From the NCBI GenBank assembly GCA_002005505.1, contig MVGU01001296.1, positions 1 to 64,000 on the forward strand: a stretch of 64,000 nt of DNA, given 5' to 3'. Origin of the DNA: Botryococcus braunii (lineage: Eukaryota > Chlorophyta > Trebouxiophyceae). Shown here in pieces: positions 2,776 through 62,243 of this stretch. The notes beneath the pieces are model-generated. The model saw only the letters and a list, made by a program, of their open reading frames with translations. It was not told the origin of the DNA and ran no database searches. Made by a program: the position numbers and the translations under genes. Position 1 is the first letter of the stretch. Each line of letters begins with the position of its first letter.

Positions 2776-2960
2776 TTTACTATCAGTCTCAGGCCCCCAG
2801 TGCCCCAATCGTCACGTGTCGACAGCCGACGAGCTGCAGGTGTAAAAAATATATGGATCTGGCAAAATCATGCGTGAAAGGGAAGAGAACAAGAAAACAG
2901 AAAGATGGGAAGGAGACAAGGGGGCCCCGGGGGGGGGGGAGAGGGAGAGGAGAGAGGAAG

Positions 2961-3128
<168 letters not shown>

Positions 3129-4128: not shown

Positions 4129-5261
4129 ATGTCACAGACAGAATCACAAGATGAAGGATTCAATGTCAGTATTGAGATAGAACCTGCCAGCCCAATGGGC
4201 AGGAATGTCTTTAGGAATCCTACCTATGATGCAGAAGCAGTCACTGATGATTCTGTGTCACATGTTACAGGGGTCCTCAATGGAATGCAGCAGCAAACTG
4301 ATGAGGGTCTACAAAGACCACAGGGAGACTCAGAATGGGAAGCATGGGGATATGATCCACAGACTCAAAACATACCTCTAAACCCTGCTTTCTCAAGACG
4401 AGACAACCTTGGTACCTTTGTACCTGCTCAGCAAGCTGCTGCATCTCCTGCCCCTATGTCTTCTAGAGTGCTAGGCTTTCAAACAAATTTGCCTGCATCT
4501 AGACCTGTCTTAAGCCCTTTGTTTGGGATACCTAGGACTGCAGTCAGGATGCCAGTGAGGCCTACACACTTACCTGTACCTAGTGCACCACTGGCAGGTG
4601 CACCAGTCAATGTTTCCTCATTCATGACAAGTGTACCACACACAGGTATTATGCTCCTTTCAGGAAACATAAATCAGGCAAGTACACCATCAGGTACTAC
4701 AGTAGTGCATGTTCCCTTGGCAACTGGTGGCACAATGCCAATCAGTTTGCCAACATCTACAATTTTAAACTCTATTGCACCAACTGTTCAAAGTGTTAGT
4801 GCTACACAGGGAACTGCTGCACAGTCAACGGCACAAGTGTCTGCCCCACCTCCTCCACCTCCACCAGGTGGTGGGCCTCCTTATAGTGGTCCACCAGGAG
4901 GTGGTGGCTGGCCTCCAAATCCACCAGGGGGTTCTTCCTCAGGCCCTCCCTGGTTTAGTGGTGTACCTGGCAGTTGGGGTATGGTGAATTCCAACCCCTA
5001 TGGTTACAGTGGGTATCCCTTCATGAAGTTCAATTCTCCTTCTCAAAGGCTTACTCCAAAGTTAGAGCCCCTGAAACTTAATGATGATAACTGGGTCATA
5101 TGGTCTAGATATGTTCATGCAATGCTTATAGAGATGGGGGTAGAATGCTGTATTCTTCATGACATGAGAGGTTATTTAGATGATTATAAGGCCCAGAGCA
5201 TTATAACACAGTCTTGTTCAGAGGAGTATCAAATACAAATCTCTGATCATTTGTCTGCCTA
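4129..5261 (+). pseudogene. gag: C1 gag, N-terminal part, cut by gypsy D
   Basis: Starts MSQTESQDEGF at the first ATG; the same start is in C2 at 22118. A Pro/Gly-rich stretch (codons near 4845-4950) precedes the usual copia gag opening (LEPLKLNDDNWVIW) from about 5065. The frame is intact up to SDHLSAY, where gypsy D enters; the target GCCTA is at 5257-5261 and again at 18322-18326. The gag continues at 18322. The long acidic and proline-rich N-terminus before the gag core is more than many copia gags have. Confidence 0.9.
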
Positions 5262-5452
5262 TGTAACGTTCCGAGTGCGAAGGGTCCGTTAGGGAGCCGA
5301 TCGGCATCGAGCCGATAGCGCGTGATCGGAGAGCGGGGTACGATGACCTCATTACGTAAACTGGCCAGCTTGGCTGGCGGGGTGCTATCAGACGGGTCGC
5401 ACCTGTGTGAGGTCATTCTCACACGAACTTGAGATCGGCACAAGATATTACA
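5262..5452 (+). repeat. Gypsy D 5' LTR
   Basis: 191 bp, TG...CA ends, no difference seen from 18131-18321. An imperfect inverted pair GATCGGCATCGAGCCGATAG lies near the middle. Confidence 0.96.
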
Positions 5453-5456
5453 TACT

Positions 5457-5468
5457 TGGTATCGGCGA
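5457..5468 (+). promoter_or_regulatory. Gypsy D first primer-binding site
   Basis: TGGTATCGGCGA, four bases after the LTR end. It is the same 12-mer as in C and E. A second copy follows LTR2 at 5888. Confidence 0.85.
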
Positions 5469-5600
5469 CGAGGGCTGATTTTTCCCCGTCGCGCGAGACT
5501 CGGGAAAACGGACTTGCCCGTAAGGGGGGATGAGATTCCAGGGTCCGTATGATCCGGAGTTGGTGGAGTTATCCGAGGGATGCTTCACGTGATCGCCATG

Positions 5601-5621
5601 GCGCGTGGTATGGGACGCGCG
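5601..5621 (+). promoter_or_regulatory. GTATGGG hairpin H1
   Basis: GCGCGT (5601-5606) and ACGCGC (5615-5620) close a loop holding GGTATGGG. See H2-H5 for the same loop with other stems. Confidence 0.65.
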
Positions 5622-5649
5622 TCCTGACCGGTCGGCCGGGTTGCCTTGG

Positions 5650-5669
5650 CTCGTGGTATGGGACGCGAG
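5650..5669 (+). promoter_or_regulatory. GTATGGG hairpin H2
   Basis: CTCGTG (5650-5655), loop GTATGGGA, CGCGAG (5664-5669); five Watson-Crick pairs and one G-U pair. The following GTCTAGGC is also shared with H4. Confidence 0.65.
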
Positions 5670-5730
5670 TCTAGGCTGATCCGACGGGAAGAGCACAATC
5701 GAGGACGATTGTGGTCTAAGCGGGGGAGAG

Positions 5731-5884
5731 TGTAACGTGCGAGCGGATCGGGCCTGGCGACCCCGGTCCGGCTCGGGTACATTAGCCGCTTAGAATTCCA
5801 TCGAAGACCTGGATCGTACCTCTTTTCAAGATGTTACGATGGCCCCCTAGCGACTGGGCAGTCGCGGGTTCGATTCTCGTTACA
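5731..5884 (+). repeat. LTR2, a different short LTR inside the D leader
   Basis: 154 bp running from TGTAACGTGCGAG to CTCGTTACA. It is preceded by a PPT-like CGGGGGAGAG and followed three bases later by a second TGGTATCGGCGA. These are all the marks of a gypsy LTR, but its sequence is unlike the D LTR beyond the first seven bases. Near its end are a 6-bp hairpin (GCGACT 5850-5855, AGTCGC 5860-5865) and GGTTCGATTCT (5867-5877), close to a polymerase III B box. No copy is present at the D 3' end. Confidence 0.7.
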
Positions 5885-5887
5885 CTT

Positions 5888-5899
5888 TGGTATCGGCGA
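5888..5899 (+). promoter_or_regulatory. Gypsy D second primer-binding site, after LTR2
   Basis: TGGTATCGGCGA three bases after LTR2. Which of the two D sites primes reverse transcription cannot be told. Only the first is next to the D LTR. Confidence 0.75.
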
Positions 5900-5973
5900 C
5901 GCAGCTGCACCTCCAGGTAACTGGAGAGGGCGGCTTTAAGCCGGGTTTCGACTCGGTGGCGCATTTTGCCGAA

Positions 5974-7032
5974 ATGCAGAGGCTCGCGACGGCGAAACTA
6001 GAATACGAAACGAGAGTTTGGCAGTTGTACTTCATCGCTGCCGAGCTCGATACGGATTCTTCCGTGGGTCGTACGGAGGACCGCGTGGATATGCTCGAGG
6101 CCGAAGTGGCCGTGCTCACTCAGCGTGTTGCCGGTAAGCACCCCACTTCTGGTCTGTCCTCTGACGTGTTGAACTCTGATTTCAATGCGAGACGAACAAC
6201 GGAACCGTCACGTGGGCCCTTTCGGCGCCCACCGGCCCCGTTATTCAATGGAGAAAAGGAGGGGACGGATATCATCACATGGTTCGGTCAATTTGATGAC
6301 TACTCGTCTATTTTGGGCCTTCGTGATGATGAATTAGTGTCCCACGCGTCCCTTTGCCTTACTGGTCGAGCCGCTAAGGAATGGGCGCTCCTAAAAAGGT
6401 CTCTTTCTGTTCAAGGAAAGGACGTGAAGGACTTTGCCATTTTCAGGACCTCCCTTCTCGCACATTTCGTTGAAGTGGAAGTTGAAAATACTGTGCGTCC
6501 ACGCTTGGCGCGATTGAGGCAAACTAAGTCCGTGGCAGCTTACCATGCTATGTTTCGTGCTATCATGGTTGAAGCTATCAAGTATCCTATCTCGGGCCCT
6601 GAAGCGTGTGCCTACTTTAGGGCGGGGTTAAAACCGAACATTTTGGAGGTTTTAACAAGAGATTCACTCGTTCGGAACGAGCTTGGTAACCTGGACATTG
6701 TTGTTCAAGCTGCCAAGGAAGCTGAATCCTTCTTGCGTATGTTGCCCGGTGCAGCGAACGAGAAGGAGATTCAGGAGCTGAAGGCCTTGATCAAGGGCAA
6801 GCGCCTGGCAGACGGGGATGCTATTCCACCTCCTAAGCGCGCTGCCTTTGGGAAGCCTCCGGGCTCGAATGGATCTGGTGCTGGGCCTTCGGGCACGCAG
6901 CCCAATGCGTATGCCGCGAGGATGAAGCGCGAAGGCCGCTGCTACAAGTGCGGGGAACTGGGCCACACGGCTAAGTTCTGCAAGAAGCCTGATGCCCACG
7001 ACAAGGGCAAGGGCAAGGGACCTGCTTCCTGA
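5974..7032 (+). CDS. gag: Gypsy D gag (capsid-nucleocapsid)
   Basis: 352 codons from the first ATG; the frame is open further up, through the second PBS. Residues about 80-290 have the alpha-helical gypsy gag layout (FNGEKEGTDIITWFGQFDDY, then a DFAIFRTSLLAHF-type segment). A zinc knuckle CX2CX4HX4C (CYKCGELGHTAKFC) lies at residues 323-336, followed by a Lys/Gly tail. It would assemble the particle and bind the RNA. It ends at TGA 7030-7032. The pol frame is the same and open from that TGA, so readthrough or reinitiation at 7075 must supply pol. Confidence 0.9.
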   Translation: MQRLATAKLEYETRVWQLYFIAAELDTDSSVGRTEDRVDMLEAEVAVLTQRVAGKHPTSGLSSDVLNSDFNARRTTEPSRGPFRRPPAPLFNGEKEGTDIITWFGQFDDYSSILGLRDDELVSHASLCLTGRAAKEWALLKRSLSVQGKDVKDFAIFRTSLLAHFVEVEVENTVRPRLARLRQTKSVAAYHAMFRAIMVEAIKYPISGPEACAYFRAGLKPNILEVLTRDSLVRNELGNLDIVVQAAKEAESFLRMLPGAANEKEIQELKALIKGKRLADGDAIPPPKRAAFGKPPGSNGSGAGPSGTQPNAYAARMKREGRCYKCGELGHTAKFCKKPDAHDKGKGKGPAS

Positions 7033-7048
7033 AGGTATGGGCCTTCAG
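7029..7048 (+). promoter_or_regulatory. GTATGGG hairpin H3 over the gag stop codon
   Basis: CTGAAGG (7029-7035), loop TATGGG, CCTTCAG (7042-7048), a perfect 7-bp stem. The gag TGA (7030-7032) is inside the 5' arm. It shares the loop with H1, H2, H4 and H5, which are elsewhere in D. Confidence 0.65.
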
Positions 7049-7074
7049 ACCAAGCAGGGGCTGATGTAAGTCCA

Positions 7075-10041
7075 ATGCAGATAGTCGCTAATGCTTTCCA
7101 CCCAGATGCTGAGGTGCAAAAGCTGACTATGATTTTTGATGGCCAGGTGCAAGGCGTGCACTGCCAGGTATTGGCTGACTCTGGAGCTAGCTGCAACATC
7201 ATCAGCGCAGCGCTCGCGGATAGACTTGGTCTACAAATAGAGTCACCACCGGAGAAGGCAGTGTTGCAAATGGCCAATGGCATGGAAGTTGATCATCTTG
7301 GGCATGTTACAATCTCTGTGACGATCCAGGGTTACCGTTTTGCTGCTGTAACTTGTACAGTGATGCATGTTCACTCCTGTGAGTGGGATGTGTTGTTAGG
7401 GCAGCAATGGTTGACCAGAGCTCGTGCTAGTGTGAACTTCGATGACAAATGTGTCACTGGGTACACTAGGAAGGGTAAGCCCTTTCGGTTACGATGTAAG
7501 GACAACATCGCCATGACTGACTCTGATTGTACAGATGCAAAGAAGTTAGTCATAACGATGGTACAGGCCAAGCGTCTTGCGCGCGCGGGGTGTAAAACGT
7601 TCTTATCATCTGTAACGCAATTGCTGTCTTCTGAAGCATCGCTTGTGGAAGTACCTGTGAGTGTGCACTCTTTGCTACAAGAGTTTGCAGATGTCTTCCC
7701 TGAAGACGTGCCAGGGCTGCCCCCTGACCGTCCTGGGGTTTCTCACACAATCCCTCTGATTGATCCACATGCGAAGCCTCCATCTCGACCCTTCTACCGA
7801 CTGTCTCGTTCGGAGGTGATGGAAGCTGAACGACAGGTGAAGCTGCTCCTGGAGAAGAAGTTCATAGAACCTTCAACTTCTCCTTACGGTGCACCTATCC
7901 TGTTTGTCCAGAAGAAGGACGGTGGTTTGCGGATGGTTATTGACTATCGCGCACTTAACAAACTCACCGTCAAGAACAAGTACCCAATGCCTCGCATTGA
8001 TGATGCACTGGATCAGCTTCAAGGTGCGACCTTGTTTACAAGTCTGGACTTGACATCAGGGTACCATCAGATCCGGATATCCGACGAGGATGTACCTAAG
8101 ACTGCCATTCGTACACCCGATGGATTGTTTCACTGGCGTGTCTTGCCGTTCGGATTGACGAACGCGCCGGCAACTTTCCAGACGGCAATGAATACAATAT
8201 TCCGGCCGTATCTGCATAAGTTTGTCTTGGTGTACTTAGATGACATCCTCATCTACAGTAAGACACCAGAGGAGCATTGCCAGCATTTGCGGCAAGTGTT
8301 GGAGCTTCTTCGAGAGCATCGGCTCTATGCAAATATGAAGAAGTGCTCCTTCGCTAAGTCCGAGGTGGCTTACTTAGGCCATATTGTCTCTTCTGAGGGC
8401 GTGAAGGTTGACCCACGCAAGACTGCTGCAGTCTACAATTGGCCTAAGCCCACGTGCTTGACGGAGCTGCGATCCTTTCTTGGATTAGCAACATACTTCC
8501 GTAAGTTCATTCGAGACTTTGCAAGGCTGGCCATGCCCCTGCATGGCATGACTCGCAAAGGTGTCCTTTGGGACTGGAAGAGCTCGTGTCAGCAAGCCTT
8601 TGATGCTATTAAGCAGGCTTTGACTCAAGCTCCGTGCTTGGCTTTCCCGGATTTCTCTAAGCCGTTTGAGGTGCATACGGATGCCTCACTGGCAGGTCTT
8701 GGGGCCGTCTTATATCAAGAGGGCCGCCCCATTGCCTTTGAGAGTCGTCGCCTCACACCGGCAGAAATCAATTATCCAACTGGGGAACAAGAGCTGCTAG
8801 CAGTGGTTCACGCCTTAACGGTGTGGCGCTGTTATCTTGAAGGTGGGCCGGAGTTCCGCGTGGTCACTGACCACAAGGCTATTACCTACCTTGATACTGT
8901 GGCACAGTTGAGCCGCCGCCAGACACGTTGGGCAGAGTTTCTCTCCCGGTTCCATTTCACATGGGAACATATGGCGGGTGCCTCAAATGTGGTTGCCGAT
9001 GCGCTGAGCCGCACGCCGGTGGGATATTCACCTCCAAACTCATTGGTGAACACTGTTGTGGTTCGTTCCACTCGTTCATACGTTTCGGAGGGTCCCCCTT
9101 GTCTTCCAAATCGCTCCCTTCGGGATGTCATTTGCGCCGTTACCCGGGCACAGGGTACTCCCTTGGCTGCAGAGGCTCGTGGTATGGGACACGAGTCTAG
9201 GCCTCCTTCAGGTGGGGGAGAGGGCATGACGTGGAAGGACAAGTTTGTGCGTGGTTATCAGGAAGACCTTTGGTTCAAGGAACCTAGCAATGTGGCGCCT
9301 CTGGTCGCACACGACGGCTTCCTGTTACACGAAGGAAAGATTGTTGTGCCGCATGCATTTGGGCTTAGATCCCACCTTATGGAAGAAATGCATGATAGCC
9401 CGTATGCTGGACACCAAGGTGTGAACAAAACCCTGAAGTTGGTTGCCCGCCATTATTGGTGGCCGACGATGACACAGGATGTGACGCAGTACGTGACTCA
9501 CTGTCACCTCTGCCAGAAGAACAAGGCAAGACATGCAAAGCCTTCGGGGCTGTTGCATCCTCTTGAGCTTCCGCATAAACCGTGGGACACGGTGACCATG
9601 GACTTCATCACCCAGTTGCCTCGCACCACAGATGGGCATGATGCCATCGTGGTGGTGGTGGACAAGCTGACGAAGATGGTCCATTTGGTGGCTACGCAGA
9701 CCACGGCGACTGCTGAGCAGACAGCGAAGCTGTTTGTGGATCATATCTGGAAGCTCCACGGAGTGCCTAGAAAAGTGGTGTCTGACAGGGATCCCCTGTT
9801 TACGAGCCACTTCACTCGAGCCTTGTGTCGGATGCTTGGGACCAAGCAGGCCATGTCCACGGCGTATCATCCTCAGACGGATGGGCAGACAGAGCGTGTG
9901 AACCGTGTTCTTGAGGACATGCTTCGCATGTATGTGTCTAAGTCACAGACTGACTGGGACGAGAAGCTGTCGTGTGCTGAGTTTGCTATCAACAATGCAG
10001 AGCACTCCAGCACAGGCTTCACGCCGTTCATGTTGAACTAT
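7075..10041 (+). pseudogene. pol: Gypsy D pol, main part (protease, RT, RNase H, integrase core), cut by E
   Basis: Open for 989 codons from ATG 7075. Protease has LADSGAS at residues 34-40. RT begins about residue 230 with the YLDD active site at 387-390 (8233-8244). RNase H follows (TDASLAGLGAVLY, then GEQELLAVVHAL). Integrase has a zinc-binding HHCC region (HAGH-type H...H, then CHLC) near residues 780-815, D of MDFITQLP, D of SDRD, and E of GQTERVNR. The frame leaves D at 10041 where E enters (target ACTAT at 10037-10041 and 16917-16921) and resumes at 16922. A spacer between RNase H and integrase holds hairpin H4. All catalytic residues are present, so apart from E this is an intact pol. 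Confidence 0.93.
9176..9195 (+). promoter_or_regulatory. GTATGGG hairpin H4 within D pol
   Basis: CTCGTG (9176-9181), loop GTATGGGA, CACGAG (9190-9195), a perfect 6-bp stem. It lies in the RNase H-integrase spacer, where it is also translated. Confidence 0.65.
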
Positions 10042-10340
10042 TGATACAGTAGAAACGGCCAAAGGATGCGAAAACAATGGTTACAAGTTGTTTGGGCTCC
10101 ACCTCAGTACCCGTCCAGTCCGGCCCGGTCCTTCCTCTGCCAAAGCCTTATTCTATCCTGTTCTAAGTGTGTCCCTGTCTCCATCGCCAATGCGCCTTGT
10201 CAAGTAAGGGGTCACTCCCTTAGCGCGTGAAGTAGCCACTTCTTGGCGTGGAGGAACATAACTCACGAAGGGACCTTTATGGAGGTCCAAATCCTCGTGG
10301 TCCGGTCATTTTCCTATAACACGCGACTATTCCTGTTACA
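10042..10340 (-). repeat. Gypsy E 3' LTR
   Basis: 299 bp; on the minus strand it runs TGTAACAGG...CTGTATCA. No difference seen from 16618-16916. Confidence 0.96.
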
Positions 10341-10929
10341 CCCTCCCCCCCTTAGATTGGACGTCACGGCCAAGAGGGAGACTCACTCTAAACAACTACA
10401 CTACGCACCTAACACACTTGGCAGAGGTACGGTCCTGTCACGTCCTGTCCGCGGGTACTAGTCTGGCGTCCCCAGCCCAAGCCAGACCCCTGTCCTGTCC
10501 TGTCTTGTCCAGCCCTGTCCGTATAACAATGTAAAATCTGTCCCGTCCATACATAAATTCGCCCGTCCTGTCCAATAGGAATTCTACCCAACGGCAGTGG
10601 GGCCACCCATCTGCGTCGGGCGTTACGCTACAGCGCGAGCTAGCACGGATGTCGCGACATTACATGATTGACGTTCGAAACCTGACAAGGGTGAGCAGTC
10701 AGCACCGCACGCACCCGAGGTAGACGACACCCTACCTCGACGAGTCCTGTCCAGGGTGAGCGGTCATCACCGCACGCACCCGAGGTAGACATTCTACCCC
10801 GCTTACGTCCTATTCATCCGAGTGCGCTCTAGTACTGGGATACCCCCAGGGTACACTCTAAGGGCCAAGCTTAGAGCTTCCAAGGTGGCCCAAGGACGCA
10901 CCGAGGGGCCGACCCGACCTGCCAGAGCA
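10341..10929 (-). other. Gypsy E 3' untranslated region with polypurine tract
   Basis: The polypurine tract (GGGGGGGAGGG on the minus strand) is 10341-10351, touching the LTR. Also present are a CCTGTCC-rich stretch (10431-10575) and a diverged direct repeat sharing CACCGCACGCACCCGAGGTAG (cores at about 10702 and 10769). No gene is seen. Confidence 0.8.
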
Positions 10930-13900
10930 CTAAGCGCGCCTAGCGCGCTTCCGCTGCTTCTCAGCATTTTTACCACGTCCTTTACGTTTCTTGTCCACCT
11001 TTTCTTTTTGTTCCGGCCTGTGCTCCGTGGTTAAATCCCAGTACCGCTGTAACGCCTCCCTGGCGTGTTCTAAGTTATCCTCTGGCTCCCAAGTATTATG
11101 AATATCCTGATACCCGGTCCACTTTACAAGATATTCTCGCGCAGTTTTTCGACCTCGTAACTTTCGTTCCCTATGAGCTAGCACAGCCTCGACCTCATAC
11201 TCCTCTTCTCCATCAATAATCTCAGGTAGAGGAGGAGGTTGTACCGTCCCACCTTCCTTATAAGGCTTAAGCATAGAAACATGGAAGACATCATGAACCC
11301 TCAGAGTTTTTGGAAGCCTAACTCTGAAAGCTACCGATGATACCTCCTGGACGATGGGAAAAGGCCCAATAAACCGAGGTAAGAGTTTTCTTGTCCGAGT
11401 ATGCTTGAATTTCAGATTCTTTGTTGAGAGGAGGACAGGTTGGCCTATTTTTAAAATAGGAGCATCTTTTCTCCTCGCGTCCGCATATGCCTTCATGCGG
11501 TCCTGCGCAGCTTTGAGACATGTCCGCGCCCTTTCTAGATCCCATCTCATCCTTCGTACAAACTCTGCTGCTGCCGGTACATACTCACGTGCAGAAGATG
11601 TCACACCTTCATAGACTTCCTGGAAGGGAATCGTGGGATCCTGACCGAAAGTCAACCTAAATGGAGTAGTGTTGATTGATTGCTGAAAATTGTTGTTGTA
11701 AGAAAATTCAGCTTCACACAAATGTTTATCCCAGTCGTTGTGTCTTCCAGTGACGTAATGACGCAAATAATCCTCCAAGATCCTATTAATTCGTTCCGTT
11801 TGACCGTCGGTCTGCGGATGAAACGCTGTAGATAGCGCAGAGCGACAACCGGTCAACCGAAAGAGCTCTTGACAGAAGCGACCCACCCACCTAGGATCTC
11901 TGTCTGATACAATGTGAGTGGGAAACCCATGCAAGGTGAAAACCCGGGTCCGTAACAGTTGAGCTATCACTTCTGCACTTGCGTCAGTGGTCGTCGGAGC
12001 GAAGTGCGCATACTTTGACAACCTATCAACAGCAACCCAGATAGCGTCATATCCTTCCTTAGTTCTTGGCAGTCCAGTGATTAGGTCCATAGACATTGAT
12101 TGCCACTTTCTGTCAGGTATTTCTAGAGGGTGTAGTAACCCTACAGGTAAGTGTGCTGGGGCTTTGACACGCTGACACGAGTCACATTGGGCCACAAAGT
12201 CAGCCACATCTGAGGCCATCCCTGGCCACCACCAGGAACGTTGAACTAATTCGAGGGTCCTGTCCCTGCCTGGATGACCAACTATAGGTGGTCCATGCAA
12301 ATTTTCCAGGATTTCTCTACGAAGGTTACGTTCGACACCGTCAGAACTCATATGGTGGGAGGGAACGTAAATGCGCGCACCGCGCTTCCACAAGCCACTA
12401 TGGAAGCTTAACTTGCGGCGATTTTGTTTACGATGGAGCCAATCATCTATCTCATATGCCTCACTTAAAACCCTTCCCCATCCCCTCAACCCGTCCATCG
12501 GCGTGGGTAGGGTGGTGGAGTCTGCAGCCTCCCCAACCCCCATCGCTCCTACTCCGACAGGGGGAGAGTGCTCCCCCAGGGGCCCTGCCCTAGCCTGAAC
12601 CGACGCCTGAACCCCAGCCTGGGCCCGAGCTAGGGCTCGGACGTGGGCCCCGGCTAAGTGAGGACTCCTAGACAATGGGTCAGCAGGGTTAGTGGATCCC
12701 GGCGCATATTCCCATTGGATGTCGAATAACTGTAGAAACTCCGCCCAGCGCGCCCGTCTGGGTGAGAGTAGGGTTTGGGTTTGCAAAAAACTATTCGCGC
12801 GATGGTCCGTAACAACTGTGAAAGTTTGCCCTAATAAGTAACACCTCCACTCCTTGAGGGCATACAACACACCTGCAAGCTCTTTCTCAGTTGTGGAATA
12901 ATTGCGTTCGGCATTACTAAGCTTTTTACTGAAGTATGCTACAGGTCTACCTTCTTGCAATAGTACTGCACCCACCCCATAGTCACTGGCATCTGAGATC
13001 ACTTTGAAAGGCTTGCTACTGTCTGGGAGTGCTAGTACAGGAGCATTGGACAAAGTTTCTTTTAAACTTTGAAACGCGTGCTCTTCAGCTTCTCCCCACG
13101 TCCAAGGAACTTTGCCAGTGAGCCGGGTTAAGGGGGCCGCGAGCGTACTGTAACCCGGGACGAACTTGCGGAAGTAGTTGGCTAGTCCCAAGAATTGTCG
13201 TACGTGCGTGCTCCCCGTGGGTGTTGGCCAGTCCACAATAGTCCGAACTTTGGCAGGGTCAACTTTGATGCCGTCGCGCCCCACGACATGTCCCAAATAC
13301 CGCAACTCGTCAGCAAAAAACTCACACTTGGATAATTTTGCATAAAGTTTTTCCTCTCTCAGCCGAGTAAGGATGCGAGTTAAGTGCTCTAAGTGCTGTT
13401 CCCTGGACTTGCTGTATACCAACAAATCATCTAGGTAAACCACAACAAAACCCTCTCGAATAAAATCATGAAACACACTGTTCATCAGTCTCTGAAACGT
13501 GGAGGGAGCATTCGTGAGACCAAAAGGAAGCACCAAAAATTCAAATGAACCTAAGGGTGTTCTAAAGGCGGTTTTGGGAACATCGGATTCATGTAATCGC
13601 ACTTGATGGTAACCTGACAAGAGATCAAAAGAGGTAAAGAACTTTGAACCCTGCAGCTTGTCCAGAAGATCGTCTATCCGTGGCAACGGATATTTGTCCT
13701 TCCTTGTTAAGTTATTAACTGCCCTGTAATCTATAACCATTCGGAATGTTCCGTCTTTCTTTCTCACAAACAATATGGGGCTACCATACGGTGATGCACT
13801 CGGCCTGATGAAACCCTGTGCTAGTAATTCCTCAACCTGCCTCCGACACTCCGCCACTTCTGGTTCAGCCAACCTATAAGTGGGGCGACAGGGCGGCGTA

Positions 13901-14535
13901 TGGCCGGGTGTCATAGGTATAGTGTGCAAGATGCCCCTGTCTGGAGGTAAATCTGGCAATTTCTCTGGAAAAACATCCAAAAACTCTAACAACAATTGCT
14001 TCAAGTCTTGTGGCTTGTCAGTCATACCCTCAATAACACGCCGGGAGTTTTCGTTTAAATCTAGGCCGGTGGCTCCGCTGTCTTCGTCCCAAGGATTATC
14101 CCCCTCTGTAGTTGCCACTGCAACCCTATGGAGATAGTGTGTTGCACAAACTGAGTCCTGTCCACTCCTTGCCTCTCGCACAACCCCCCAAAACCCTGGA
14201 CAACCCTTTCGCATAGCCCGCCTAGCTTGACCCTCACTTATAACATTCACTTTTTGCGCCGGTAAGGTACCTCTTTCACTAGGGGGCAGCGGGTTGAGGA
14301 GTGTAATGTAGTGTGAGGAATGAGGCGGTTTAAGATGAACTGCGCCATGATTGTAGTCAATTAAAGCTTTTCTTTCTTTCAGAAAATCCTCCCCAAGGAT
14401 TAAGTCCACCCCATCCAACAGAGTTTCGCAGACAATGAAATCTCTGTTCCACATATGTTTGAGATAAGTGCACCCTGAGCTTAGCTGTCCCCGCCGAGCG
14501 CATGGTCTGTCCATCTGCCAGCTGGACATCCACAC
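10930..14535 (-). CDS. pol: Gypsy E pol (end of protease, RT, RNase H, integrase, chromodomain)
   Basis: About 1200 codons without a stop. It begins inside the protease (DLILGEDFLKE region). RT has the YLDD active site at 13426-13437 and LPFGLTNAPSTFQ just before it. RNase H (SDASDYGVGAVLL; TTEKELAGVLYAL) follows. Integrase has H...H...CDSC, MDLITGLP, SDRDPRW and GQTERINR. A chromodomain (YEVEAVLAHR...YLVKWTGY...WEPEDNL) is near the C-terminus, which then ends in a Lys/Arg-rich tail that could be a nuclear signal. Chromodomains are thought to steer integration towards modified histones. The true start is in the upstream frame; a one-base frame change near 14441-14448 separates them. Confidence 0.93.
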   Translation of the reverse strand: MWMSSWQMDRPCARRGQLSSGCTYLKHMWNRDFIVCETLLDGVDLILGEDFLKERKALIDYNHGAVHLKPPHSSHYITLLNPLPPSERGTLPAQKVNVISEGQARRAMRKGCPGFWGVVREARSGQDSVCATHYLHRVAVATTEGDNPWDEDSGATGLDLNENSRRVIEGMTDKPQDLKQLLLEFLDVFPEKLPDLPPDRGILHTIPMTPGHTPPCRPTYRLAEPEVAECRRQVEELLAQGFIRPSASPYGSPILFVRKKDGTFRMVIDYRAVNNLTRKDKYPLPRIDDLLDKLQGSKFFTSFDLLSGYHQVRLHESDVPKTAFRTPLGSFEFLVLPFGLTNAPSTFQRLMNSVFHDFIREGFVVVYLDDLLVYSKSREQHLEHLTRILTRLREEKLYAKLSKCEFFADELRYLGHVVGRDGIKVDPAKVRTIVDWPTPTGSTHVRQFLGLANYFRKFVPGYSTLAAPLTRLTGKVPWTWGEAEEHAFQSLKETLSNAPVLALPDSSKPFKVISDASDYGVGAVLLQEGRPVAYFSKKLSNAERNYSTTEKELAGVLYALKEWRCYLLGQTFTVVTDHRANSFLQTQTLLSPRRARWAEFLQLFDIQWEYAPGSTNPADPLSRSPHLAGAHVRALARAQAGVQASVQARAGPLGEHSPPVGVGAMGVGEAADSTTLPTPMDGLRGWGRVLSEAYEIDDWLHRKQNRRKLSFHSGLWKRGARIYVPSHHMSSDGVERNLRREILENLHGPPIVGHPGRDRTLELVQRSWWWPGMASDVADFVAQCDSCQRVKAPAHLPVGLLHPLEIPDRKWQSMSMDLITGLPRTKEGYDAIWVAVDRLSKYAHFAPTTTDASAEVIAQLLRTRVFTLHGFPTHIVSDRDPRWVGRFCQELFRLTGCRSALSTAFHPQTDGQTERINRILEDYLRHYVTGRHNDWDKHLCEAEFSYNNNFQQSINTTPFRLTFGQDPTIPFQEVYEGVTSSAREYVPAAAEFVRRMRWDLERARTCLKAAQDRMKAYADARRKDAPILKIGQPVLLSTKNLKFKHTRTRKLLPRFIGPFPIVQEVSSVAFRVRLPKTLRVHDVFHVSMLKPYKEGGTVQPPPLPEIIDGEEEYEVEAVLAHRERKLRGRKTAREYLVKWTGYQDIHNTWEPEDNLEHAREALQRYWDLTTEHRPEQKEKVDKKRKGRGKNAEKQRKRARRA

Positions 14536-15073
14536 ACTTCTTTGACAGCCTCACTCCGAGAGTAGCTAGGAAGTCTTGTCTGACGAACGAGTGCGTCGCC
14601 CCGGTATCGACTAAAGCGACGCCCTTCACACCAGTACAGTTAACATGAAAAAGCATTGCTAAATGCCTATTTGAAAAAGCTTGAGCAAAAGATACGCTAA
14701 ATTTGGGTCCGGCATGGTAAACTACATAGGAGTAGGGGACATCAGGTCCCTTGGTACCTTGCAGGATAACTCTCATGCCTTTTAGCCATGGGTACACTAC
14801 CTTGGATTTCGCCACTTTACTACCCATTAGAAAACAAGCACTTAAATGTTTATTTGCTTGTTGCTCACGAGCGAAAGTGGATAAGGTGTCCTCCGCTTTA
14901 CCTATAGGTACTGCAACAAATGTCGGTTTAGACGTTCCATCGGGTAGGGTATTGTCAAAGGGGCCTCTAGAAAAAGAACAATGCAAAAACTCAGAACAAC
15001 GTTGCTCGATAGAAGAATGAAAAGATTCCCAAGGAACAAAAGTGTGGAGGTTTCCTTCTCTAACTCCACTCAT
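14357..15073 (-). CDS. pol: Gypsy E protease (N-terminal part of the pol reading frame)
   Basis: ATG 15073-15071 overlaps the gag stop as ATGA. The active site is VALVDTGATHSFV, around 14605-14640. The frame then leaves the protease fold after QTYVEQR and runs into unrelated residues, while the fold continues in the frame of the downstream pol. As both LTRs look identical the element is young, so the frame change may be a sequencing error or a very recent mutation. An in-frame TAG two codons before the ATG argues against frameshifting from gag and for termination-reinitiation. Confidence 0.8.
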   Translation of the reverse strand: MSGVREGNLHTFVPWESFHSSIEQRCSEFLHCSFSRGPFDNTLPDGTSKPTFVAVPIGKAEDTLSTFAREQQANKHLSACFLMGSKVAKSKVVYPWLKGMRVILQGTKGPDVPYSYVVYHAGPKFSVSFAQAFSNRHLAMLFHVNCTGVKGVALVDTGATHSFVRQDFLATLGVRLSKKCVDVQLADGQTMRSAGTAKLRVHLSQTYVEQRFHCLRNSVGWGGLNPWGGFSERKKSFN

Positions 15074-16401
15074 GGCCTACCGCGTCCCCTTGCCCGGCCC
15101 CGTCCACGGCCCCGTCCTCTGATTCTCCGTCCCCGTCCGGCCCCACCCTGTGCTGTCCACCCTTGCATAGGGGCTGCTCCCATACCGAGGGACCTAAAGT
15201 TGTTGTGGCCCCCTCCTACCCGTCGCCGCAGCAAATCACCAGCCAGACCTGGAATTGGTGGAGCAGGCTGGTTTACCTCCTGTCTGGCCTTCACAATGTG
15301 TTGCAAGATGTCCCACTGTTGTTGATTAAGATAGGCGTTAGGGTCCTCTCTAAGTTTTTTGAGTGGGCAAAACCAAGATTCATGGCCAGGGGTATTGCAC
15401 GCGTAACAGCTTCTGTTGAGGGGAAAGGCAACTCTAGTGTCCCTCCGATACTCGGGAGGTAAACCATCCCTGCGGGGATAAGGAGTCGCGCCTTGGATCG
15501 CGGCGACCGTGGCGAGCGGCGCAGGGTAACCATGGGCCATCTGGATTGGCGCTGCCACCATCGGTGCAGCTGCCATCATCCCAAATTCATGACTGTAGTA
15601 GGGGATTGTCCAGTCCTGTCCGACGCCAGCAACGTGCGGTGCTGGGCCAATGGTGGCGGTTGCAATGCTTGAGTTAGGGCCCCCGGGGCCGGTTCTCAGT
15701 CTCTTTGCCTGTAAGGGCCCGCCCACCGCGGCATCGTACCGTGTGAGTAAACTTATCAAGGCATCCAAATCATCAAAACCTTTGCCTGTTGTAGGGTTAA
15801 TTGCTGAATATTTCTTTAAATCCTCACGTAGGCCTTTACGAAACCTATGGATTTTCTCCCCCATGGATAGGTCCCCACTGACTTCTACCTCTGCTAGCAA
15901 GGTTGTAAAGCGCTCAACATACTTCTCAACTGATTCGTTGCCCTGATATACGGAATCAAGTTTATCCCTTGCCTTTGCAACCTTATCAGTGTTATCATAG
16001 ACAGAAGACAACAGATCCCCAAAGAGAGCTAAATCCACGACAGCACCTGGATTTTGCCTCACGTAAGCTGCTTTTTTTGTTAACCACACCTTTTTCACGC
16101 TCTTTCCTAAACAGCGCACTGCGTAATCAACCCTGAGGTTCGCGGGCACACCGGTGAGTTCACAATATGACCTCACATCGTCTAGGAATTGTTCGAGATC
16201 GTCCCTGCGTCCCTCGAATTTTTCCGGTAAATGCGTTCGAACTGTCGGGATTCTTGCCTGTGGGTTCGCGGGGATTTGAGCCGCGACTTCAGCGTTTTCT
16301 GCCTGTTGTCGTAACTCAGCCAGTTCGGCAGCCATTGCCGCTTCACGCCCCTCGGCCTCGGCCAAAGCAGCCTGCAGCTCTTCGACTTGTCGTCTAGCCA
16401 T
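15070..16401 (-). CDS. gag: Gypsy E gag (capsid-nucleocapsid)
   Basis: 443 codons from ATG 16401. The start MARRQVEELQAALAEAEG is strongly helical with heptad-like Leu/Ala spacing, likely a coiled coil. The gag core follows (FEGRRDDLEQFLDDVRSYCE, then YVERFTTLLAEV), then a zinc knuckle CYACNTPGHESWFC, and an Arg/Gly-rich C-terminus (GRGRRIRGRGRGRGR), a typical RNA-binding tail. The stop TGA overlaps the protease ATG by one base step. A longer frame upstream lacks an ATG. Confidence 0.9.
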   Translation of the reverse strand: MARRQVEELQAALAEAEGREAAMAAELAELRQQAENAEVAAQIPANPQARIPTVRTHLPEKFEGRRDDLEQFLDDVRSYCELTGVPANLRVDYAVRCLGKSVKKVWLTKKAAYVRQNPGAVVDLALFGDLLSSVYDNTDKVAKARDKLDSVYQGNESVEKYVERFTTLLAEVEVSGDLSMGEKIHRFRKGLREDLKKYSAINPTTGKGFDDLDALISLLTRYDAAVGGPLQAKRLRTGPGGPNSSIATATIGPAPHVAGVGQDWTIPYYSHEFGMMAAAPMVAAPIQMAHGYPAPLATVAAIQGATPYPRRDGLPPEYRRDTRVAFPLNRSCYACNTPGHESWFCPLKKLREDPNAYLNQQQWDILQHIVKARQEVNQPAPPIPGLAGDLLRRRVGGGHNNFRSLGMGAAPMQGWTAQGGAGRGRRIRGRGRGRGRARGRGRP

Positions 16402-16604
16402 TTCTGAGCTGTCAGTGCTGGCGAGGCTCGGTGACACAGGAAATCGAGAAAGTCCGGGTGGGGGCCCTAAACTCGGTGACCCGAGTCGTAGGCCCCTAAA
16501 AGCGCCACACACACCACAACTAACCCAATCCGAATCTATAGAATTCTCTGAAAAACTTATTTGGGAAATCTTTTCAACGAGAGGAGCTCAAAATTTGGCC
16601 CCTC

Positions 16605-16616
16605 TCGCCGATACCA
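16605..16616 (-). promoter_or_regulatory. Gypsy E primer-binding site
   Basis: TGGTATCGGCGA on the minus strand, one base inside the 5' LTR. It is the same 12-mer as in C and D, pointing to one host tRNA used by three families. Confidence 0.88.
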
Positions 16617-16617
16617 G

Positions 16618-16916
16618 TGATACAGTAGAAACGGCCAAAGGATGCGAAAACAATGGTTACAAGTTGTTTGGGCTCCACCTCAGTACCCGTCCAGTCCGGC
16701 CCGGTCCTTCCTCTGCCAAAGCCTTATTCTATCCTGTTCTAAGTGTGTCCCTGTCTCCATCGCCAATGCGCCTTGTCAAGTAAGGGGTCACTCCCTTAGC
16801 GCGTGAAGTAGCCACTTCTTGGCGTGGAGGAACATAACTCACGAAGGGACCTTTATGGAGGTCCAAATCCTCGTGGTCCGGTCATTTTCCTATAACACGC
16901 GACTATTCCTGTTACA
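16618..16916 (-). repeat. Gypsy E 5' LTR
   Basis: 299 bp, no difference seen from the 3' LTR at 10042-10340. Followed by the second ACTAT (16917-16921) and D sequence. Confidence 0.96.
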
Positions 16917-16921
16917 ACTAT

Positions 16922-17509
16922 GGTCATCACCCGTACCTACCAGTATCGGTGTTGCCAGAGTTCAGGGTCCCGGCTGCCTCGAGCTTTGTCCAACGCATTC
17001 AGCGTTTAGTGGCAGAAGCTCGGCGCACACATCGCATTGCGACGGAACGCCAGGCACGTTACGCTAACACGAAGCGTAAGGATGTCACGTTCGCTCCAGG
17101 AGATTGGGTCCTGTTGTCGGCTAAGAACCTAAGGTTCAAAGAGGGCACACCGAAGCTGTTGCCTCGGTGGGTCGGGCCGTTCCAAATTGCCAAGTCTGTT
17201 GGAGGCAACTCCTATGAGTTGATCCTCCCGGCACGCTGGAGGATACATGACGTGTTCCATGTGTCACGGCTGGAACGATACCGCCGGGATGGCAGTGTCC
17301 AACCACCACCACCTGCTGAGGTGCTGAAGGGGGAGGACGAGTACGAGGTGGAGAAAATTCTTCACCACCGGAAGGCTCGCCGCTCGTATGAGTTCCTGGT
17401 TCGGTGGGTGGGATACTCCCCTGAACATGACACGTGGGAATCAGAGGCGAACTTGCGGAATGCCCCTGGGGCGTTGAAGGAGTATTGGGCACGGGTCAAG
17501 ACGGGCTAG
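16922..17509 (+). pseudogene. pol: Gypsy D pol, end of integrase with chromodomain
   Basis: Continues the D frame after E. It holds the basic integrase C-terminal domain (GDWVLLSAKNLRFK, then LLPRWVGPFQI and HDVFHVSRLERY) and a chromodomain (YEVEKILHHRKARRSYEFLVRW, WVGYSPEHDTWE, LKEYWARVK). The stop is TAG 17507-17509. It has no promoter of its own and is only meaningful as part of D. Confidence 0.92.
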
Positions 17510-18130
17510 GACCCAGGAGACACACAAATGGCCTTGAGTCGGGCTGTTGTCACTTCTGGGGTCGTGGCATTCGATCCACATGTCCAGTCGATGGGACATC
17601 CCTCGTTAGCGGCGAAGTGGTTGCATTGTTCAACATGTCGTCCTACTCAATAGCTCCTCCCTGTCCCTGGCTATGCCAATGGAAGGGCCCTATTCCGTTC
17701 ACTGCGGACTTAGTAGCACCTCAGATAGTCTCAAGGGCATGGTGCACCCCGGGTCTTGGACTCGGTGTCTGAGAGGCTCTGCTGATGGTGGGTTGTGACT
17801 CTAGAGTAACCATGTACTCTAAGCGCTATGGTGATGGTCAGTGAAACCCCCAATAGCTGGATTAGCCAGATGGATTTCTGGTGACGGAGGTTGTACTTCC
17901 GGGAGTGCTCCGCGGGCAGTCCAAATGAGCATGGGTGTGGATTGTCGTTACCACTAGTCTGCCGGGACTAGGGTGGCGGGTGGCTGGGCAAGAGGTATGG
18001 GACTCTTGTCTGTAGGGCTTCCTGCGAAGGTGGCTGGTCAGGACGTGATACACTCTTGACTGTAGTGCTTCCTGTGTGGGAGATGCATCCCCCTCAATCC
18101 GAGACGGCTTGAGCCTAGGTGGGGGAGGGG
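17510..18130 (+). other. Gypsy D 3' untranslated region with polypurine tract
   Basis: About 620 bp without a gene. A tandem repeat of about 50 bp (17981-18030 and 18031-18080) holds hairpin H5 in its first copy. GTGGGGGAGGGG (18119-18130) is the polypurine tract. Confidence 0.85.
17989..18008 (+). promoter_or_regulatory. GTATGGG hairpin H5
   Basis: CAAGAG (17989-17994), loop GTATGGGA, CTCTTG (18003-18008), a perfect stem with bases unlike H1-H4. Confidence 0.65.
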
Positions 18131-18321
18131 TGTAACGTTCCGAGTGCGAAGGGTCCGTTAGGGAGCCGATCGGCATCGAGCCGATAGCGCGTGATCGGAG
18201 AGCGGGGTACGATGACCTCATTACGTAAACTGGCCAGCTTGGCTGGCGGGGTGCTATCAGACGGGTCGCACCTGTGTGAGGTCATTCTCACACGAACTTG
18301 AGATCGGCACAAGATATTACA
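18131..18321 (+). repeat. Gypsy D 3' LTR
   Basis: 191 bp, no difference seen from 5262-5452; followed by GCCTA (18322-18326), the target duplication. Confidence 0.96.
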
Positions 18322-20988
18322 GCCTACTCTATGTGGGACTACTTGATGGCCTTATTTGTTACAAAAGCAAATGGCAAAATCATATCTCTCCAGAAAGAGT
18401 CCCGCACCTTCAAGATGCATACAAATGAGAAACCTTCCTCATATGTGTTAAGGGGTAGAAAAATAGCCAACACAATTAAAAGCTTAGGACATGAGTTCAG
18501 TGACCTCTCACTCTGCACTATGCTTTTAAATGGACTCCCTGAGGAGTATAATATACATAAGCAGGTTCAACAATCTATTATAGTGTCCAATCCTGATGTG
18601 AATCTGCTACAACACTCTTTAGAGCTGGCACATATGCAGATAGTGAATAAGAAACTCCAAACCCCACCACCTAAAAACAACACCTTTAACCAGAAGTCCT
18701 CTCCTGGTCAAGGTTACAACCTTAAGTATAAGGCACCAAATTCTCCTACTTCAAATGCTGTAGAGAAAGGTGCTAATCAAGGTGGTGGTGGGCAGAGTGG
18801 TAAAACAGCCTTCCAACAGATAGGGAGGCCTTTACCATTTTGCAGGTACTGCAAGCAGGATGGACACAGCATAGAGACCTGCCCAAAGTTGGAGGGGAAG
18901 AGAGTTAGCTTTGCTTCTCCACCAAAGCAGAGCCACTGCACACAGCTATATACAGTTTGCTCTGAACCCTCTATTTCTGGTTGGCTGATAGATTCTGGTT
19001 CAACAGATCATATTTCCCCTGAATGTGAGAATATGATGAATTATGTCAAGTTTGATAAACCAGATATCCTGATAGTAGCAAATGGTGGTAGGGAGGAAAT
19101 CATTGGTGAGGGTATTGTGCAGGTCTTCCTGGAAACAGGAAACTCTCTTTACCTGTACAATTTTAAACATGTACCCTCAGCTAAAAAGCGTTTATTGTCT
19201 GTAGGGAAGGCCTATCATGATGGGTTAGATGTTCATATAAATGGCATTCACTGTCACCTTACAGATTCAAATGGTGATCTTGTGGGCATTGCTGAACATG
19301 TATACCCTTATCAGTGGCTCACAGACCTTTCTATACAAAACAGTGGTTCCCTACCAGTGTCAAATGAAAAGACACAGTGCAACCATACAAAGGTGGATGT
19401 AGATCTGGTAAACATATGGCATCAGCGTTTTGGTCATCTCTCTGCTCAAAACTTGCAAAGGTTGAGCAGGGAGAAAATGGTAGAAGGCTTAAAACTCCCA
19501 TCAGGTGACCTATCCAAGTGCATTGGTCATCAAGGTACTTGCGATGCCTGTATGCATGGGAGGCAGACAGCCTCACCATTTAAATCAACCCAAAATACTT
19601 GTTCAAAACCTCTTGAAGTCATTCACATGGACCTTATGGGCCCCATAGATCCTGAAACTCCTGAAGGATACAAGTATGCCCTTGTCATTTTGGATGAGTT
19701 CACAGAGTACTCATTTGTTGTTCTGATTAATTCTAAGAGTGATGCAGCAAAAGAAACTACATACATTCTCACAGCTTTGCAAAACCAGCAAGACTGTAAA
19801 GTACAATTTATCAGAACAGATAATGGTACTGAGTTCAATGGGTTGTTCAAATTCTGTAGGGAGCATGGGGCAGTTCACCAGAGGACTGCCCCATATGCAC
19901 ATCAGCAGAATGGGAAAATAGAGAGGCTCAACCGTACGCTACAGGAGAAAGCAAGATGTTTGCTAGCTGCCTCAGGTTTATCATCTGAAAACTGGGGTGA
20001 AGCTCTTCTTACTTCATTTATGTTAGAAATATGTCTCCTGTTAAGCACTTGAGCAAAACCCCATTTGAAATGATGCATGGAAAGGCTCTTAATGTTTCAC
20101 ATATCAGAATCTTTGGCTCCAAATGTTTTCTCCTTCTTCCTAAGTCAAAGAGGGGAGGGAAATTTGAGCCTGTCAGTGCTGAGCGTATCTTTGTAGGTTA
20201 TGATGGCCTTAGCAAGAACTACAAAGTTCTTGTTGATGGAAAGATTGATGTTTACTGCAGAGAATATGTCAAATTCTCTAAACATGCTGTTCATGATCTG
20301 CCTGAAGCATTGGCTGAAGACGATGAGGATGACACTTGCCCATCACTAGTGAGTGTCTCTGATTCTGACTCAGAAGATGGACATTCTGATGATGGTGATA
20401 ACACAGAGCAAATGCCTGATGTCTCTTCTGCATTAGATATCCCAGAAATTAGCTTAGAGATAGATCAGGGTACTACACTAATTAGTGCTGGAGAGCAAAC
20501 GGGAAAGGATCAGGACCACTTTGGTCTTGATCCTAGTGGGACTAAGCATGGTAAATGTGCAGCCGCAGGAAGTACGGACGCTTTAGATCCAGAACCCTGT
20601 TACACAAGTGCTGCAAGTCCGCGCCCACTTAAGGGTGTTCCACAAGCGACTATCCATGAAACGAGTGGGGGGAGTGTCCCAGACCCCCAATTAGAACCTG
20701 GAGTAGACCAGGATGTGGTCCCTAAGCCTCCAGCAGGTGGTTTCAGCAGTAAATATCCAGTTAGGAATAGGAAAAATGCAGAAACACATCCCTGGTGGTC
20801 TGGTGCACACACTACAGAAACCCAAACCTCTTTCCTTGGATATGTTCAAGTCCAAAAAGACACAATATATGTTGAACCTGTCACTTACTTTCAAGCTATC
20901 AACTCTCCTGAAGCTGAAAAATGGTTGGATGCCTTGAAAGATGAAATGCAGTCTCTCTCTGCTCTTGGCACCTGGACATATGTGGAAG
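18322..20988 (+). pseudogene. gag-pol: C1 gag end, protease and integrase, between the D and C2 insertions
   Basis: Continues C1 after gypsy D. Holds the rest of gag, a zinc knuckle CRYCKQDGHSIETC, protease WLIDSGSTDHI, and integrase with the HHCC zinc region (WHQRFGHLS...CDAC), D of MDLMGP, D of RTDNGTEF and E of NGKIERLNR. A one-base deletion near 20016 (TTCATTTATG; C2 has TTCAAATTATG) shifts the frame after the integrase core. The interdomain acidic region and the start of RT follow in the new frame. C2 enters after GGAAG at 20984-20988. Confidence 0.92.
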
Positions 20989-42333: not shown

Positions 42334-42348
42334 GGTTATGGGCCCACC
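42334..42348 (+). promoter_or_regulatory. A1 primer-binding site
   Basis: GGTTATGGGCCCACC, as in A0. It pairs with GCCCATAACC at the LTR end. The third copy before the gag ATG has one change (CCTATAACC). Confidence 0.75.
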
Positions 42349-51231: not shown

Positions 51232-51382
51232 TGTGTGAAAGGTTATGGGTTTCTGCAAGTCTGGGTCACTTTGCAGATATGAATCGTTCTGGATATGACG
51301 TGCAGCAGGTATTCAAGGCGGACTCCTCGTACTCTGCAACCTTGGCTTCGGCGTAGCTCGATGGGCAGGTGGGCCCATAACC
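51232..51382 (-). other. Copia A leader and primer-binding site
   Basis: GGTTATGGGCCCACC (minus strand) is 51368-51382, touching the 5' LTR. A copy of the LTR terminus CCCATAACCTTTCACA precedes the gag ATG at 51234-51249. Confidence 0.8.
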
Positions 51383-62092: not shown

Positions 62093-62243
62093 TGTGTGAA
62101 AGGTTATGGGTTTCTGCAAGTCTGGGTCACTTTGCAGATATGAATCGTTCTGGATATGACGTGCAGCAGGTATTCAAGGCGGACTCCTCGTACTCTGCAA
62201 CCTTGGCTTCGGCGTAGCTCGATGGGCAGGTGGGCCCATAACC
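62093..62243 (-). other. Copia A leader and primer-binding site, second unit
   Basis: PBS (minus strand) 62229-62243. A copy of the LTR terminus lies before the gag ATG at 62095-62110. Confidence 0.8.

Follow-up and report, generated by a model that had tools for sequence, protein, structure and literature searches.

In this work we analyzed a stretch of 64,000 nucleotides of the green alga Botryococcus braunii (contig MVGU01001296.1 of assembly GCA_002005505.1, positions 1 to 64,000; hereafter the window) that carries D, a long terminal repeat (LTR) retrotransposon of the gypsy type, and along it five small hairpins, H1 to H5, that display the same loop. D is a chromovirus: its gag has a zinc knuckle, its pol domains follow the order protease, reverse transcriptase, RNase H and integrase, a C-terminal chromodomain closes the coding region (Pfam hits), and two 191-bp LTRs, 100% identical to each other, enclose the element within the duplication GCCTA. 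The gag product gave 16 protein matches, among them the B. braunii proteins P0004 and P0005 (eukprot Botrbrau1). D was inserted in a frame that, judged by eye, is copia-like, and its own pol is split by a second gypsy element that lies on the minus strand (10042-16916) with the duplication ACTAT.

Each of the five hairpins is 20 nt long and includes 6 bp, the loop G-TATGGG-A/C, and 6 bp. The hexamer as such shows no clear excess in the window (36 occurrences, with 28.2 expected); nonetheless, TATGGG, as well as GTATGG, is found in all five loops, and in 1000 dinucleotide shuffles that kept the two stretches of D apart, five hairpins with one loop hexamer were never obtained. The maximum number of hairpins with a common loop hexamer was one in 536 shuffles, two in 459 and three in 5, and 200 earlier shuffles in which the stretches were joined gave an agreeing result. 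For D without the leader that carries H1 and H2, three hairpins sharing one loop hexamer (the case of H3, H4 and H5) were reached in 2 of 1000 shuffles. All five fold in context, with stem-pair probabilities of at least 0.9 in contexts of 161-280 nt (0.84 for E1, a sixth hairpin described below), so that the five hairpins with the common loop GTATGGG reported by a previous sequence-only reading of this DNA are confirmed. The loops of H1, H2, H4 and H5 are open, and in H3 and E1 the end bases of the loop, U and G, mostly pair together. The RNA fold of the leader is better than that of its shuffles (z -3.84, 0/200), and for the 3' region of D this is less clear (z -2.04, 7/200). Rfam at gathering score gave no family in the window, no relatives were confirmed in viral contigs, and the literature searched, with most subscription journals outside its coverage, contains no description of such a constant-loop hairpin or of these algal elements.

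The leader was searched in the genome (all genome counts in this work come from one 176-Mb assembly, that is, from the DNA sequence of one genome), and among 40 scored of 75 candidates, 15 places had matches of at least 94 bp. Nine of these (L002-L007, L009, L010 and L012) are free elements in which the same 278 nt lie between two copies of a different repeat, LTR_T; three (L013-L015) are partial, and the other three are junctions of the LTR of D with this sequence, namely L001, which is the window, L008 and L011. The free element, T, has about 584 bp, and eight of its nine complete copies show matching 5-bp duplications (L003 is without them). Given that the leader exists as free LTR_T-flanked elements with their own duplications, H1 and H2 are, from their sequence, part of T, a captured non-autonomous element, and not of D proper, contrary to the earlier assignment of all five hairpins to D. 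The region 5262-7032 of the window is thus a chimera with the order LTR_D, T, LTR_T, primer-binding site (PBS) and a gag without its start: the alignment of gag to P0004 begins at residue 104 in this copy, and at residue 1 in L008. Since the whole lies between identical LTRs and a perfect GCCTA duplication, the chimera probably integrated as one unit. In the D copies on C6, C13 and C32 the spacings of H3, H4 and H5 are the same, and no adjoining H1 or H2 was present among the matches listed. Among the 30 D loci examined, all 29 that aligned at H3 have it unchanged, as do 25 of 27 at H4; in a damaged relative of D with 86% identity (C287, L063), H5 is intact and H4 has decayed, with the loop GTATGAGA. 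Apart from the PBS, exact words of at least 11 nt common to T and D occur only in the hairpin unit.

The same search also gave many 45-bp matches (query 134-178; 15 loci, L016-L030) that revealed a second short element, E, of 585 bp and with its own LTR. Matching duplications were found in seven of the eight copies checked out of these 15 loci, the eighth being L028, whose limits are not definable. The hairpin of E, referred to as E1 (CCACGTG-TATGGG-CACGTGG), is intact in 13 of the 15 loci (15 occurrences; L024 and L025 overlap and hold two); in L021 the loop is damaged and L016 is masked at the hairpin. E1 and H2 are positional counterparts, given that both precede GCACAATCGAGGACGATTGTGGTCTAAG, a 28-nt word of T and E, which is followed by the polypurine tract. 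The two hairpins have one and the same loop core and differ in five of the six stem pairs, with pairing kept throughout; this comparison is the best evidence that structure and not sequence is kept in the stem. The earlier view that a constant loop on changing yet paired stems indicates probable selection on RNA structure is supported, and E1 makes it stronger. In the set formed by H1-H5 and E1, all six hairpins form 6/6 pairs and five of the six pairs have changed on both sides; since the hairpins were picked for pairing, this speaks for the diversity of the stems and not for their independence. In addition, a 29-bp unit recurs almost unchanged at H1, H2 and H4 (89.7 and 96.6% identity), so the five hairpins do not represent five independent origins. 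These near-copies would suit the view that the sites are DNA palindromes, such as transcription factor sites, or duplicated sequence devoid of RNA function. However, a DNA-binding protein is expected to fix the arms, whereas here the arms vary and the spacer is fixed, and the sense strand of D carries all five sites, with no TATGGG-loop hairpin as strong on the opposite strand there; this view is consequently the least probable of those considered, and we regard it as very improbable.

T and E fit the definition of terminal-repeat retrotransposons in miniature (TRIMs): both have two short LTRs, a PBS, a polypurine tract and target-site duplications of their own, with little coding room as judged by their length. 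They may be TRIMs of the Helenus type (TRIMp3), for which the order LTR-PBS-polypurine tract-LTR with short LTRs, tRNA-like boxes A and B in the LTR, and 5-bp duplications in fungi and plants are described (PMC10886601). According to the same source, Helenus is reported from fungi, animals and one plant (Selaginella), whereas T and E are algal, and many of the tRNA predictions made for it look unfunctional; the term hairpin is absent from its text. By eye, box A- and box B-like motifs are present in LTR_T (TGGCC..TGG and GGTTC) and in LTR_E (CGGCC..TGG and GGTAC in L018), and ARAGORN found no tRNA gene in either LTR. E and a related gypsy family, named here the 79% family, have a common 23-nt junction of polypurine tract and LTR, and in the overlapping loci L024 and L025 one E stands directly after the LTR end of this family. 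In L017 the E sequence is likewise found directly after sequence other than its own LTR. The joining of E to foreign sequence at these three loci suggests template switching between co-packaged RNAs, and the D/T junctions together with that of the 79% family and E suggest co-packaging.

The hairpin was also searched at the genome level with patterns in which the sixth stem pair was C-G or G-C. With an outer C-G pair and the loop GTATGGG, 668 matches were obtained against 322 for the control; 100 of them were listed (58 distinct), six of which are fully paired, all belonging to D, T or E, when 0.73 are expected with the arms re-dealt and none of 2000 re-dealings reached six. With an outer G-C pair there were 434 matches against 345, without an excess of paired hairpins among the matches listed (100, 96 distinct): two were fully paired against 1.15 expected, a chance result reached in 634 of 2000 re-dealings, and no PBS or GGGGGAG is present in the 501 bp of either. 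When the second loop position was C, G or T and the closing pair G-C, 157 matches were obtained, compared with 214 for the control; by eye, the fully paired ones among the 100 listed were H3 of the 79% family, single-base variants of H4 and H5 (one each) and one more place with a G-U pair.

Table 1. Coordinates of D, T and their hairpins in the window.
Feature	Position	Strand	Remarks
5' LTR of D (191 bp, TGTAACG..TTACA)	5262..5452	+	Target-site duplication GCCTA at 5257-5261
Internal part of T, leader of this D copy	5453..5730	+	Same 278 nt between two LTR_T in free T elements
PBS TGGTATCGGCGA	5457..5468	+	Complement of the 3' end of initiator tRNA-Met; tRNA genes L072/L077
H1, CGCGTG-GTATGGGA-CGCGCG	5602..5621	+	Hairpin
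H2, CTCGTG-GTATGGGA-CGCGAG	5650..5669	+	Positional counterpart of E1 in TRIM E
Second hairpin ACAATCG-AGGA-CGATTGT	5695..5712	+	Inside the 28-nt word common to T and E; not found in D
Polypurine tract of T, GCGGGGGAGAG, directly before LTR_T	5720..5730	+	From sequence
3' LTR of T (TGTAACG..CGTTACA)	5731..5884	+	Box A/box B-like motifs near its 3' end (by eye); second PBS at 5888-5899
gag open frame, stop to stop	5851..7032	+	Retrotrans_gag, zinc knuckle; TGA at 7030-7032
H3 at the gag stop, C-TGA-AGG-TATGGG-CCTTCAG	7029..7048	+	pol goes on in the same frame
pol: protease, reverse transcriptase, RNase H, integrase	7033..10044	+	Split by the nested gypsy element
H4, RNase H-integrase spacer	9176..9195	+	20-nt hairpin, in frame, folds in context
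GGGGGAGAGGG, candidate central polypurine tract	9214..9224	+	18 nt past H4
pol end with chromodomain	within 16838-17509	+	After the nested element
H5, 3' untranslated region	17989..18008	+	110 nt upstream of the 3' polypurine tract
Degenerate tandem copy of the H5 unit	18039..18058	+	Without the loop motif; 80.9% repeat, 50-bp spacing
3' LTR of D	18131..18321	+	Polypurine tract GTGGGGGAGGGG directly before; duplication GCCTA at 18322-18326

Two further features were observed in the window. The 3' region of D contains at about 17801-17822 the palindrome TAGAGTA..TACTCTA, with the loop ACCATG in this copy and, on the antisense strand, CATGGG in the copy L003 (at 991), and a GA dinucleotide repeat of about 95 units is found at 2939-3125.

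H3 was set apart from the other hairpins after a 17-nt motif was found at gag stops across families. In three gypsy families, that is, D, the 79% family and another named here the 73% family, the element TGAAGGTNTGGGCCTTC has 16 of 17 columns identical, compared with 14/45 and 18/60 in the flanks, and TGA is the gag stop with pol following in the same frame. The motif TGANNGTNTGGGCNNTC has 197 matches in the genome against 4 for the control, and 98 of the 100 listed are TGAAGGTNTGGGCCTTC. The loop can be written as TNTGGG, with A at position N in D, C in L064 (79% family) and G in L067 (73% family); the stem is invariant across the families, and H3 therefore offers no covariation. Depending on N, the second codon past the stop encodes Tyr, Ser or Cys, and this points to a constraint on RNA rather than on protein. 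An in-frame stop, pol in the same frame and a context conserved in three families are features of readthrough elements, and we infer that H3 is one of these, with the stop codon inside the stem. In Tca2 and in murine leukemia virus an RNA structure likewise accompanies an in-frame gag-pol stop; in Tca2, as described in PMC2194720, this is a pseudoknot placed after an 8-nt spacer, whereas in H3 the stop codon lies within the stem. It could then be supposed that H3 is purely a recoding element, and that the other loops match it by copying of a piece of H3 in D and T, or by chance. The recoding role is probably true, and is compatible with the reading favored below; the supposition as a whole is unlikely, since copying leaves unexplained the fully different paired stems of H1, H2, H4, H5 and E1, and the shuffles speak against chance.

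The identity of the primer brings a different significance to the loop. The 3' end of the initiator tRNA-Met (tRNA-iMet) accounts for the PBS of D, T, E, the 79% family and the nested element, and a pattern made of TGGTATCGGCGA, 22 unspecified nucleotides and then any base except A has 1302 matches in the genome, compared with 2 in the control. A search for the initiator anticodon-arm pattern gave seven places, two of which (L072 and L077) are tRNA-Met genes according to ARAGORN and read ATCGGCGTAGCTCAGCGGAAGAGTGGTGGGCCCATAACCCACAGGTCAGAGGATCGAAACCTCTCGCCGATA; the window contains no tRNA genes. Within the anticodon loop of this tRNA, CCCAUA(A), the six nucleotides CCCAUA are perfectly complementary to the hairpin loop UAUGGG. 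Only 2 of the 4096 hexamers fit a 7-nt anticodon loop (odds of about 1 in 2000 for one random loop), and the computed energy of the duplex between both loops is -7.7 to -8.4 kcal/mol.

Based on this complementarity, we tentatively favor a loop-loop contact of the hairpin with the primer tRNA-iMet, similar to that of the A-rich loop of human immunodeficiency virus type 1 (HIV-1). The hairpins would be RNA elements of the genomic RNA that display the loop G-UAUGGG-(A/C); in D (H4, H5, and perhaps H3), T (H1 and H2) and E (E1) this loop would most likely pair with CCCAUA, a second contact that would bring in or retain the tRNA matched by the PBS at its 3' end. The stem would drift by paired changes because it is only a scaffold, and the loop would be fixed because the host tRNA does not change. 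T and E, being non-autonomous, would use related helpers, and H3 would act in translation at the in-frame UGA of gag, either besides this contact or in place of it. The contact itself, its timing and effect, and the relation between helper and parasite all belong to this proposal. With somewhat less confidence, the hairpin may be viewed as a modular 'anticodon-kissing' hairpin, a fixed loop on a drifting stem placed at several points of the genomic RNA, which parasites would keep in a minimal set together with the LTR tips, the PBS and the polypurine tract. The sequence-only reading had proposed for the hairpins Gag binding, which stands here as a rival, and translation control, which is likely at H3; the complementarity to the primer anticodon was missing from its list.

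Precedents for additional contacts with the primer tRNA have been described (PMC3185550, PMC7793103, PMC4974528, PMC5371799). In HIV-1, an A-rich loop lies upstream of the PBS, its contact with the tRNA is debated, and in the MAL isolate this loop is closed by a G-A pair (PMC3185550). Likewise, H1, H2, H4 and H5 have a G opposite an A where the loop opens, and the anticodon loop to which the hairpin loop is complementary belongs to the tRNA that the PBS indicates. Unlike in HIV-1, the tRNA is here the initiator, the hairpin is present in several copies away from the PBS, its carriers are an algal gypsy element and TRIMs, and the contact is only predicted. Ty1 and Ty3, with a bipartite PBS, use the same primer tRNA-iMet and have extra genome contacts, which in Ty3 also include the 3' region (PMC4974528, PMC5371799); as described in these sources, such contacts occur with the T and D arms, not with the anticodon loop, and involve no constant-loop hairpins.

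Several observations weigh against this contact. The complementarity was noticed after the fact, when several possible partners had already been considered, and a modified A37 could weaken the pairing with the anticodon loop. The 79% family, whose PBS also corresponds to tRNA-iMet, has the H3 loop TCTGGG, for which the energy of pairing with the anticodon loop is only -5.3 kcal/mol. In the 73% family, whose PBS is another one (TGGTGCCCC.., by eye; L069 reads TGGTGCCCCATATCGG at about 667-860), the H3 loop is TGTGGG, with -7.7 kcal/mol including a G-U pair; the T-TGGG core thus exists without a perfect match to the tRNA. No TATGGG-loop hairpin was found in 20 leaders (about 0.8 kb each, chosen from 100 listed PBS rows) of other families with the same PBS, their 3' regions being outside this search, so that the contact, if real, would be special to this group. 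In the T copies L012 and L013 the H2 loop is GTAAGGGG, with H1 intact. The D copies yield no covariation: H5 has 84 matches in the genome with up to three mismatches (5 in the control), of which 74 are identical, 5 differ by one base and 5 by three, and of the five single-base variants two are in the loop, two break a pair and one is a C to T change that leaves a G-U, so none is compensated. The covariation test across D copies that the sequence-only reading had recommended is therefore uninformative, the copies being too alike. Outside the anticodon loop, D (with the PBS left aside) and T match tRNA-iMet at chance level. When complementary stretches of at least 8 nt were counted with the PBS included, as a comparison with the T- and D-arm contacts of Ty3, D had 5 where 5.0 are expected and 1 where 1.7 are expected; in T such stretches are limited to the PBS, and in E to the PBS and one 9-nt match to the D arm present in both LTR copies. 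Finally, even for HIV-1 the corresponding contact is a matter of debate.

Some of these loops are better explained if the hairpin is a packaging signal recognized by the zinc knuckle of the Gag nucleocapsid, which would read a G-rich GUNUGGG loop on any stem and in this way allow the TRIMs to enter helper particles. The T-TGGG core extends to the H3 loops TCTGGG and TGTGGG, Gag of D does have a zinc knuckle, the non-autonomous T and E carry the hairpin, and the packaging signals of TRIMs are reported to be conserved only in structure (PMC4558846). The junctions between elements, which point to co-packaging, and the long words of T and D confined to the hairpin unit favor it as well, but D/T junctions and few common words suit the tRNA contact equally. 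In contrast, Gag binding does not predict an exact match to the anticodon loop of the primer; in addition, the 79% family, the apparent partner of E, has no such hairpin except H3 in the stretches of 3' region, leader and spacer that were looked at, and neither H4 nor H5 was found in the portions retrieved from the 79% and 73% families. Hence we consider packaging through Gag a real but slightly weaker possibility, and favor the contact with the primer tRNA over it.

The position of the hairpins raises another alternative, in which they would guide plus-strand priming by helping RNase H to select the polypurine tracts. H5, H1/H2 and E1 are upstream of 3' polypurine tracts and H4 precedes the candidate central tract, and in Sireviruses a conserved stem-loop, an inverted repeat, is found beside the tract (PMC2829016). 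However, the distances vary from 18 nt (H4) to about 50 (H2 and E1), about 100 (H1) and 110 nt (H5), a fixed loop is not needed for this role, and no such tract was noted at H3. In Sireviruses, moreover, the tract is part of the repeat, and a constant loop elsewhere is not described in that source. As to the central tract, it is no more than a candidate, because GGGGGAG is also present at 17329, in the chromodomain part of D, and without a long purine run in the spacer of the nested element; G-rich purine tracts occur too in the RNase H-integrase spacers of two related families (L065 and L066), although these spacers align poorly. A role in plus-strand priming is accordingly improbable.

The initiator tRNA-Met is also involved in other elements of the window. 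Four copia-like PBS, GGTTATGGGCCCACC, at 1037-1051, 42334-42348, 51368-51382 and 62229-62243, are the exact complement of its anticodon half, which suggests half-tRNA priming for these elements. The sequence GCCCATAACC, directly before the one at 1037, could pair with this PBS. In 9 of 30 PBS rows (e.g. C11:290512, C14:180181 and C2:836485) the end of the PBS pairs with sequence a few nucleotides downstream into a PBS-proximal hairpin (score at least 7; no shuffle control), with different stems and some of the rows being related. In L079 and related PBS rows, CTTATGG is found a few nucleotides past the PBS, and its hexamer TTATGG is also complementary to the anticodon loop of tRNA-iMet.

These results bear on the means by which LTR elements select and keep a primer tRNA, and on the route of coding-less TRIMs into helper particles. 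H3 represents a second, independent target, a 17-nt motif kept across algal gypsy families with the stop codon within the hairpin. A 20-nt module made of a fixed loop and a free stem is common to a parasite of 584 bp and a full element that have little else in common and, if the contact with the primer proves true, tRNA-primed gypsy elements would gain a second step of tRNA recognition, similar to one still under debate for HIV-1 itself.

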